Notes under the pieces: model-generated | Databases searched by the model: none | What the model saw: the letters and a program-made list of their open reading frames with translations, nothing else | What the model was told of the DNA's origin: nothing | In this document: positions 16,973-22,774 of the stretch, piece by piece | Numbering within the stretch: position 1 is the stretch's first letter | How the letters are laid out: every line of letters begins with the position of its first letter | From: Candidatus Daviesbacteria bacterium | GTDB taxonomy: Bacteria > Patescibacteriota > Microgenomatia > Daviesbacterales > UBA10151 | Assembly: GCA_016183265.1 (NCBI GenBank) | Contig: JACPEX010000023.1 | Span: 1-44,112 of the forward strand | Direction of reading: 5' to 3' | DNA: 44,112 bases | Program-made: the position numbers and the translations under genes

Positions 16973-17251
16973 ATGACAAAGATTGTAATTAAAAAATTAA
17001 TTTGGGATGAATATAACATTGAACATATTAAAAAACATGAGGTTGCTCAAGCCGAAGTTGAAGAGGTAGCTAAGAATATAGTAGGTCATAAGCAATCTAA
17101 ACTGGGTAGATATCTAATAATAGGTAGGACTGGTCCAAGAATTATATCGGTAGCCGTTAGTAGAAAAGCAATAGGAATTTATTATCCGGTTACTGCAAGA
17201 GATGCATCTAAAAAAGAAAGGAAAATTGTGTATGAAAAAGAAAAAATTTAA
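16973..17251 (+). CDS. BrnT-like toxin of a type II toxin-antitoxin system
   Basis: A basic 92-aa protein. Its IKKLIWDEYNIEHIKKH start and the C-terminal YYPVTARDASKKERKIVYE pattern resemble BrnT, a RelE-superfamily RNase whose end typically reads (R/S)AR.A...ER..Y. The gene order, toxin before antitoxin, is also that of brnTA. It overlaps the antitoxin gene by 20 nt, giving tight coupling. A consensus promoter with repeated operator-like boxes precedes it. Function is inferred from similarity by eye. Confidence 0.7.
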   Translation: MTKIVIKKLIWDEYNIEHIKKHEVAQAEVEEVAKNIVGHKQSKLGRYLIIGRTGPRIISVAVSRKAIGIYYPVTARDASKKERKIVYEKEKI

Positions 17252-17510
17252 CTTTCCTGATTTTAATAAAATGAGTTATGAAGAAGAAGCCAATTGGTGG
17301 GATACTCATGATTGGGGAGAGTTTTGGGATGAGTTGAAGGATGTTGATATTGTTTTTGAGTTACATAAGCCAAAAGATGAAACTATAATTGTCCGGATGC
17401 AAAAAAGTTTAAAGGCTAAATTAGCCAGGATTGCCAAGGCAAAGGGTTTAAATATGTCTTCTCTTGCCAGGTTATGGCTGGTGGAAAAACTCCAATCAAG
17501 CCGATCTTAA
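17232..17510 (+). CDS. BrnA-like antitoxin with ribbon-helix-helix C-terminus
   Basis: A 92-aa protein when started at ATG 17232 (an upstream ATG at 17202 is less likely, lying deep in the toxin gene). Residues around 13-30 (SYEEEANWWDTHDWGEFWDE) match the toxin-binding region of BrnA/COG5304-type antitoxins. The C-terminal IIVRMQKSLKAKLARIAK and NMSSLARLWL fit a CopG-like ribbon-helix-helix DNA-binding domain. It would neutralise the toxin and bind the repeats upstream. The stop lies 1 nt before the enolase ATG, so enolase is probably cotranscribed. Confidence 0.75.
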   Translation: MKKKKFNFPDFNKMSYEEEANWWDTHDWGEFWDELKDVDIVFELHKPKDETIIVRMQKSLKAKLARIAKAKGLNMSSLARLWLVEKLQSSRS

Positions 17511-19330: not shown

Positions 19331-20479
19331 GTGACTGTCACAAAGTTTGAATCGATTTGGACGGGGACAACGCCCGTAACTGATTACCCGGAACTTAGCA
19401 AAGATTTAGTAGTTGATGTGATAATCATTGGCGGCGGAATAACAGGCATAAATGCCGCATACTTTTTAAAATCTCAAGGCCAAAAAGTAGCAATTATTGA
19501 GGCAAATAAAATTGCTACCGGCACTTCTGGTAATACTACTGCTAAGATAACTTCTTTGCACGAATTAAGGTATGCTTATTTAATGAAAAAATTCGGAAAA
19601 AATAGCGCCCAAATTTATGCTGATGCCAACCAGTGGGCAATTAAGGAAGTAGAAAACATTATTAATAAAGAAGATATTGAATGTGATTTCGTAAAAGCTC
19701 CGGCATTTACTTACACCAGGACAAAAAGGGATTTAGATAGAATTAAACAGGAAGTAGAAGCTGCGAAGGATTTAAATTTACCGGCATCTTTTGTGACTGA
19801 AATCCAAAACTTCCCATTTGGAATTTTCGGGGCAGTTAAATTTGATAACCAAGCCTATTTTCATCCCAGAAAATACCTTTTGAAATTAGCGGAAAAAATT
19901 AATATATTTGAAAAAACCAGAGCTTTAGATATTAAAGAAGGAAGTAGCTTTTGTGAAGTAAAAACTAACCGAAAAAACATCAGAGGCAAATTCATAATTA
20001 TTGCTACTAATTTTCCTTTTTATGATCCTTATGGGATTTTTACTAAGATTTATAGAACCGGCTCTTATGCCTTAGCTGCCAGAGTTGCAAAAATACCTGA
20101 TGGAATGTTTCTTGGCGCCCAAGGGGATGACTTGTCTTTTAGGCCGCACAATGAGTGGTTAATCATCGGAGGTAAGCATCATAATATTGACGAAATTGGG
20201 AATATTAATGAGAGGTTTAATGAGCTGGTAAAATTAGCAAATAAAGATTTTCAAATATCAAGTACTGACTATATGTGGGGGGCGCAGGATACTATGTCTT
20301 TGGACCAAGTCCCATATATTGGTAAGATGCCGCAAGCTAAAAGAATTTTTGTGGCAACCGGTTTTAGCGCCTGGGGGATGACTACCGGCGTATTGGCAGC
20401 CAAACTATTAACTGATCTAATTTTAGAAAGAAAAAATGACTGGCAAGAATTTTATAGTCCAGCAAGACTGAGGAGGTGA
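19331..20479 (+). CDS. FAD-dependent oxidoreductase of the DadA/glycine oxidase family
   Basis: A 382-aa flavoprotein of the D-amino-acid dehydrogenase superfamily. VDVIIIGGGITGINAAYFLK is the FAD-binding Rossmann motif (residues 28-47), GTSGNTTAKITSLH follows, and the C-terminal FVATGFSAWGMTTGVLAAK is the second FAD-contacting segment. In many bacteria this protein type is fused to a C-terminal Rieske domain; here that part is a separate gene immediately downstream. The start is GTG 19331, with TAAACT ending 6 nt upstream. The substrate is unknown. Confidence 0.82.
   Translation: MTVTKFESIWTGTTPVTDYPELSKDLVVDVIIIGGGITGINAAYFLKSQGQKVAIIEANKIATGTSGNTTAKITSLHELRYAYLMKKFGKNSAQIYADANQWAIKEVENIINKEDIECDFVKAPAFTYTRTKRDLDRIKQEVEAAKDLNLPASFVTEIQNFPFGIFGAVKFDNQAYFHPRKYLLKLAEKINIFEKTRALDIKEGSSFCEVKTNRKNIRGKFIIIATNFPFYDPYGIFTKIYRTGSYALAARVAKIPDGMFLGAQGDDLSFRPHNEWLIIGGKHHNIDEIGNINERFNELVKLANKDFQISSTDYMWGAQDTMSLDQVPYIGKMPQAKRIFVATGFSAWGMTTGVLAAKLLTDLILERKNDWQEFYSPARLRR
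20471..20478 (+). promoter_or_regulatory. Strong Shine-Dalgarno selecting a TTG start
   Basis: AGGAGGTG, continuing as AGGAGGTGATT, is a near-perfect complement to the 16S rRNA 3' end. It lies 6 nt before TTG 20485, favouring that codon over the GTG inside the Shine-Dalgarno itself. Confidence 0.75.
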
Positions 20480-20484
20480 TTATT

Positions 20485-20733
20485 TTGGATATTGATATTG
20501 AAAAAGGAGAAGGAAAAATTATTGATTATAAAGGGCAAAAGTTAGGAATATATAAGAATGAAAACGGTAAGATATTTGCAGTTATTCCGGATTGCACTTA
20601 TGAGGGTTGTCGGTTAAATTGGGATAAAAAAGAAAAGAATTGGGTTTGTCCTTGTTGTGGGTCAAGGTTTAGTTATGAAGGAAAGGTGATTAACGGCCCG
20701 GCTACGGAAAATTTGGAAAAAGCTACAATTTAA
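20485..20733 (+). CDS. Rieske-like protein without the two histidine ligands
   Basis: An 82-aa protein with the Rieske [2Fe-2S] fold pattern: DCTYEGCRLNW then WVCPCCGSRFSYEGKVINGP. In a normal Rieske site these read CTHxGC and CPCHGS. Here the first His is Tyr39 and the second is Cys58, while Cys37 and Cys55 (iron ligands) and Cys42 and Cys57 (disulphide pair) remain. It cannot form the standard 2Cys-2His cluster; an all-Cys site or a lost cluster are the options. It overlaps the end of the FAD oxidoreductase open frame region, directly following it, and is the detached C-terminal domain of that enzyme type. Confidence 0.8.
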   Translation: MDIDIEKGEGKIIDYKGQKLGIYKNENGKIFAVIPDCTYEGCRLNWDKKEKNWVCPCCGSRFSYEGKVINGPATENLEKATI

Positions 20734-22300: not shown

Positions 22301-22774
22301 ATGCCAACCAGAGGGTCACTAAAAAAGGGAGTAAAAGCGCCTGATTTTACTCTTAAAGTTACGCCTGACCAACAAGTTTCATTGTCAGATTTTAAGGGTC
22401 AACCAGTGGTGCTAATTTTTTACCCTGCGGATTTTAGCCCTGTTTGTACTGATGAAACTGCTGTCTTTGATAAACTCCTTCCTAAATTTAAAAAATACAA
22501 AGCCCAGCTTTTAGGGATTTCTGTTGATAATGTTTGGAGTCATTTAGCTTTTGCCAGAGAGCGCAATATTCAATTTCCGCTGCTGTCAGACTTTCATCCT
22601 AAAGGGGAGGTTGCAAAAACTTACAATGCATACCGGGAAGAAGATGGGGAAGCAGAGAGGGCGCTCTATCTAATTGATAAAAATGGTAATATTGCCTGGA
22701 GCTATATTTCTCCGGTTGGTGTTAATCCGGGAGCAGAGGAAGTCTTACAAACTTTAGAGGATTTAAGTAAATAA
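22301..22774 (+). CDS. Peroxiredoxin (BCP/AhpC-TSA family)
   Basis: Thiol peroxidase of 157 aa that reduces peroxides. The fold starts with KAPDFTLKV and FKGQPVVLIFYPADFSPVCTDE, where the peroxidatic Cys is near residue 50 in the usual PxxxT/SxxC context (here the Pro-to-Cys segment ends SPVCTDE). FPLLSDFHP and RALYLIDKNGNIAW follow. No second conserved Cys is obvious, so it may be a 1-Cys type. It precedes a DUF3175 gene with a 1-nt overlap, and MsrB elsewhere in the window also serves oxidative repair. Confidence 0.88.
   Translation: MPTRGSLKKGVKAPDFTLKVTPDQQVSLSDFKGQPVVLIFYPADFSPVCTDETAVFDKLLPKFKKYKAQLLGISVDNVWSHLAFARERNIQFPLLSDFHPKGEVAKTYNAYREEDGEAERALYLIDKNGNIAWSYISPVGVNPGAEEVLQTLEDLSK

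Follow-up and report, generated by a model that had tools for sequence, protein, structure and literature searches.

The window, a 44,112-nucleotide stretch of DNA from a Candidatus Daviesbacteria genome (G000), encodes a natural, conserved, histidine-less protein of Rieske fold that is paired with a flavoprotein. Exchange of both Rieske histidines is known from the laboratory; a limited search of the open-access literature returned neither a report of a natural His-less Rieske protein nor a natural, conserved case of this exchange. With moderate confidence, we propose that a [2Fe-2S] Rieske site has here been converted by nature to a mononuclear iron (or zinc) thiolate site, which would need no cluster assembly and would still serve the flavoprotein. 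If this is true, an electron carrier can persist after cluster-building machinery is lost, by switching metal, and the protein offers a small natural system on which to test such switching.

Fold and ligand site of the window protein

The protein comprises 82 residues and is encoded on the forward strand at positions 20485–20733 of the window. Its TTG start codon lies 8 nt past a Shine-Dalgarno sequence, AGGAGG (20471–20476, forward strand), which falls within the final codons of the gene before it. That partner gene (19331–20479, forward strand) encodes a DAO-type FAD oxidoreductase of 382 residues, identified by a PF01266 match (1.4e-41) and by its orthologues. Elsewhere in the window, an AhpC/TSA-family peroxiredoxin (22301–22774, forward strand; PF00578, 7.8e-39) is encoded two genes downstream of the Rieske-like gene, past two minus-strand genes, and two overlapping small ORFs of 92 and 102 residues (16973–17510, forward strand) resemble, by eye, a toxin-antitoxin pair of the BrnT/BrnA type.

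The 82-residue protein scores 43.6 bits with the Rieske family model PF00355, whose cut-off is 20.3. Its AlphaFold2 model has a mean pLDDT of 93 and matches known Rieske structures, with Z scores of 13.7 to 8hn2 and 12.4 to 5cxm. Judged by this model and the family match, the protein combines a Rieske fold with a non-Rieske ligand set. Loop 1, canonically CTHMGC, reads CTYEGC (20593–20610, forward strand), with Cys37, Tyr39 in place of the histidine, and Cys42, formerly a disulfide cysteine. Loop 2, canonically WDCPCHGS, reads WVCPCCGS (20641–20664, forward strand), with Cys55, the former disulfide cysteine Cys57, and Cys58 in place of the second histidine. Relative to the canonical domain, four site positions are altered together: His to Tyr, Met/Leu to Glu, Asp to Val and His to Cys. 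Residues 37, 42, 55, 57 and 58 are the only five cysteines, and histidine is absent from the whole protein.

The Rieske ligand motif, C-x-H ... C-x2-H, is accordingly missing, its two halves being CTY and CPCC. Within the CPCCGS of loop 2 (nt 20647–20664), CPCCG (nt 20647–20661) constitutes a CPxCG knuckle of the rubredoxin type. Loop 1, however, lacks the C-x2-CG knuckle of rubredoxin, as CTYEGC is C-x4-C. Nor does the protein contain the plant-type [2Fe-2S] ferredoxin motif, C-x4-C-x2-C ... C, as no third cysteine occurs within two residues after the C-x4-C of loop 1. An initial sequence-only reading had described a Rieske-like protein with both histidine ligands replaced, leaving five cysteines and a tyrosine, behind a flavoprotein of a kind that usually carries a normal Rieske domain as a fusion. 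The translation and the PF00355 match confirm the first of these points, and the PF01266 match and the fused copies in relatives bear out the second.

Conservation in a second genus and ancestry of the gene pair

The homologue search covered three sets of genomes: 45 from the family, 374 from the class and 380 from the phylum. One match, from another genus of this family (G018, locus L003), carries the same altered site; here too the Rieske-like gene is split off and lies directly behind the same flavoprotein gene, with the same Shine-Dalgarno and TTG layout. The two proteins are identical at 48 of 80 residues (60%) and at all 14 residues of the two-loop site, an agreement with a P value of 3e-4 if identities were randomly placed. 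Five of the 14 site codons differ synonymously, and dN comes to about 0.25, dS being saturated. Besides the cysteines, other loop residues are conserved between the two, including Pro, Gly, Tyr and Glu. This pattern indicates that the altered site is under maintaining selection. At almost every strongly conserved position the flavoproteins of both genomes keep the usual residue, and the enzyme as such therefore appears intact.

Sequencing error and chance are excluded, because the identical replacements recur in a second genus alongside synonymous changes; gene decay is excluded by the same copy, by the synonymous changes within the site and by a dN well below dS. The initial reading had asked whether Tyr and Cys are conserved in homologues, and held that close homologues with normal ligands would mark this copy as decayed. 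The answer to each is divided: both residues are identical in the second genus, but all 22 other same-phylum homologues that were aligned retain both histidines (CxHx[GD]C...C[PD]CHG), and canonical homologues of up to 57% identity exist, yet the best match has the variant site. Its idea of a variant beside the flavoprotein stands: the variant is real and conserved, given the site identity and gene pairing in the second genus. The class search, repeated around another centre on nearly the same genomes, yielded no additional carrier; a scan of virus contigs found no relative, and every match in a plasmid scan fell below 60% identity.

In most relatives for which the flavoprotein gene is covered, the Rieske domain forms the C-terminus of the DAO-type flavoprotein. 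In such canonical fusions (for example G023, G174 and G061, and plasmid records annotated as FAD-dependent oxidoreductase), the flavoprotein is orthologous and the Rieske domain homologous to those of the window, the latter at 42–57% identity in same-phylum copies. A canonical copy has CxH...CPCH and is in most cases fused, whereas the window version is a separate gene with CxY...CPCC, adjacent to the orthologous flavoprotein gene in both variant genomes. In a flavoprotein tree, the two variant genomes group with the canonical fused copies of G023 and G174, the clade of four having 100/100 support and the two variants as sisters only 81/61; in the short Rieske-domain tree, the precise position of the variants stays ambiguous. 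We suggest that the protein began as the C-terminal part of a DAO-type flavoprotein, in the form of a canonical Rieske domain, and that, in one small-genome bacterial lineage, this domain became a separate gene behind the flavoprotein gene and had its site rebuilt. Flavoprotein and Rieske domain are also split in G604 (L044:132-1740), where the canonical histidine ligands remain, so splitting of the fusion can be rejected as a sufficient cause of ligand loss.

Cluster assembly and the likely metal site

We compared assembly genes across 20 genomes with the domain, namely the two variant genomes and 18 canonical carriers. A cysteine desulfurase-type protein, called by a PF00266 match of 1e-20 or better, occurs in 17 of the 18 canonical carriers, the exception (G111) being 60% complete. 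SufB/D (PF01458) occurs in 7 of the 20. Neither variant genome has a PF00266 match at this threshold or a PF01458 match. Whole-assembly tblastn searches, for which the queries were Isc proteins of E. coli, SufB- and SufS-type proteins from the same phylum, and IscS and IscU of relatives, found nothing in either genome except DnaK-type matches to HscA. Cysteine desulfurase, IscU and SufB/D are therefore not recognisable in the window genome (84% complete) or in its counterpart (93% complete), and scanning both for ferredoxin-type motifs gave no match. Loss of the ligands is associated with absence of assembly genes (Fisher P 0.016, or 0.006 without G111), though the two variant genomes share ancestry and amount effectively to one event at most.

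Within the family at large, a clear cysteine desulfurase occurs in only about 7 of 45 members, with weaker matches near 90 bits in five more. Many of these 45 genomes (for example G004, G006, G007 and G011) encode radical-SAM proteins and have no clear cysteine desulfurase. The window genome itself retains two radical-SAM proteins, so it must obtain some clusters despite the absence of known assembly genes; no radical-SAM match was found in G018. Searches of open-access papers yielded nothing on loss of Fe-S assembly in these bacteria. In several genomes of the class, SufD-like and SufS-like genes flank a gene for a small canonical Rieske ferredoxin (L009, L010, L012 and L013), although the SufS-like gene was not seen at L013.

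The rebuilt site would no longer hold a His2Cys2 [2Fe-2S] cluster and most likely binds a single metal ion, either iron as in rubredoxin or else zinc. Candidate ligands are Cys37, Cys55 and Cys58, joined by Cys42 or Tyr39. Such a site could fill directly from cellular metal, needing neither cysteine desulfurase nor scaffold. We prefer iron to zinc because the partner is a redox enzyme; an iron site would receive its electrons from that enzyme's reduced flavin, a role that presumably fell to the Rieske domain before. An engineered precedent is the archaeal Rieske-type ferredoxin (ARF) of Sulfolobus solfataricus, in which the triple mutation H44I/K45C/H64C is described as producing a rubredoxin-like Fe(Cys)4 site (PMC2946596, citing Iwasaki 2005). 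The C-x4-C spacing of loop 1 differs from the C-x2-C of rubredoxin and of this mutant and leaves the fourth ligand uncertain; since the spare loop-1 cysteine lies two positions beyond the one added in the mutant, that ligand could be Cys42 or Tyr39.

Other fates of the site can be envisaged. The two knuckles might bind zinc in a small module resembling a zinc ribbon, with a stabilising or regulatory role towards the flavoprotein and no part in electron transport; this amounts to the zinc half of our proposal minus electron transfer. Zinc-finger models do respond to the variants (zf-UDP at 22.6 bits and zf-Sec23_Sec24 at 14.4 bits), and Rieske cluster-binding loops are said in PMC2946596 to resemble rubredoxin and zinc-ribbon scaffolds; however, both matches fall under their cut-offs, and an electron-accepting domain is what the partner, a redox flavoprotein, normally bears, so we regard a purely structural zinc as unlikely. 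The initial reading had also offered a low-potential [2Fe-2S] cluster with all-Cys ligands, to which a Cys3Tyr set may be added. Four cysteines are available, beyond one another's loops, the radical-SAM proteins of the window genome imply that some clusters are present, and H64C alone is reported to give the archaeal protein a low-potential [2Fe-2S] cluster with three Cys and one His (PMC2946596). The variant, though, has no histidine at all, the ARF double mutant H44C/H64C largely fails to assemble its cluster according to the same source, and no known assembly system turned up in either variant genome, all of which make this cluster improbable. Of the mechanisms offered by that reading, the single rubredoxin-like metal fits best.

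Two further readings involve no metal. A dithiol/disulfide relay fed by the flavoprotein would account for five conserved cysteines, two of them adjacent (Cys57 and Cys58), but the flavoprotein has only two cysteines, Cys118 and Cys208, which are far apart and form no CxxC of the thioredoxin reductase kind, and conservation extends to the Pro, Gly, Tyr and Glu of the loops; we consider such thiol chemistry very doubtful. Still harder to credit is a structural remnant, in which the cofactor was lost and the domain kept solely as a folding partner of the flavoprotein, like the cluster-less folds of the NirD type. In its favour, both variant genomes encode the domain separately, and NirD, a Rieske fold without a cluster, is an established precedent, yet the site is fully conserved between two genera, has gained a cysteine and evolves with dN far below dS, while the split but canonical gene of G604 indicates that splitting by itself brings no loss.

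Comparison with known systems

A possible parallel to the proposed metal site comes from Bacteroidota. A scan of genome contigs, which is uninformative on frequency as CPCCGSRF was among its patterns, recovered seven proteins of about 150 residues with CPCCGSRF and five conserved cysteines (L015:4791-5255, L016:4791-5255, L017:1441-1878, L018:4869-5324, L020:4806-5276, L021:151-588 and L026:4791-5246). Each has a Rieske-like domain and, by eye, an N-terminal signal peptide of the lipoprotein type with no twin-arginine motif. The model of one has a pLDDT of 79.5 and matches the Rieske structure 8hn2 (E 3.8e-6); no NCBIfam model reached its cut-off against these lipoproteins. In loop 1, five of the seven have Tyr, one Asn and one His. 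They thus share loop 2, the five cysteines and mostly the tyrosine with the window protein, but differ in having a signal peptide and a longer loop 1, with no flavoprotein neighbour seen and 31–34% identity to it. Several of their genes adjoin a gene resembling S-adenosylhomocysteine hydrolase.

Export by Sec takes place in the unfolded state, and proteins that use this route could not carry along a cluster built in the cytoplasm. The lipoproteins would be another case of a Rieske fold that has no access to cluster assembly and bears a site of this type. Short-domain trees neither support nor reject a common origin of the two variants (AU p 0.80 with the ligand columns included and 0.61 with them removed); independent origin is favoured only by the flavoprotein linkage and the 99/99.9 support for the phylum's own group in the masked tree. 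We tentatively extend our proposal, as a possibility rather than an expectation, to a Rieske electron carrier that became a rubredoxin-like mononuclear iron carrier once a reduced genome had lost Fe-S assembly, the exported lipoproteins having arrived at a similar solution, whereby folds cut off from assembly adopt a self-filling metal site. On our reading, the automatic label "Rieske [2Fe-2S]" would over-predict clusters in reduced genomes and in Bacteroidota lipoproteins.

Among characterised systems, the ARF triple mutant, as described in PMC2946596, shares with the window protein the Rieske scaffold, loss of the loop-1 histidine, replacement of the loop-2 histidine by cysteine (the equivalent of H64C) and the CPxCG knuckle. 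That mutant is engineered, has its extra loop-1 cysteine at C-x2-C and lacks the disulfide cysteine pair; the natural variant instead has a loop 1 of the Tyr39/Glu43 type with C-x4-C, its spare cysteine being a former disulfide cysteine. With rubredoxin, the window protein has in common the loop-2 CPxCG knuckle and possibly an Fe(Cys)4 site, but its fold is that of Rieske proteins and its loop 1 is C-x4-C rather than C-x2-CG. Like NirD and the Rieske_2 family (PF13806), it is a Rieske fold without the His2Cys2 ligand set. NirD, however, keeps no metal-type set of cysteines, whereas all five are conserved in the His-less variant.
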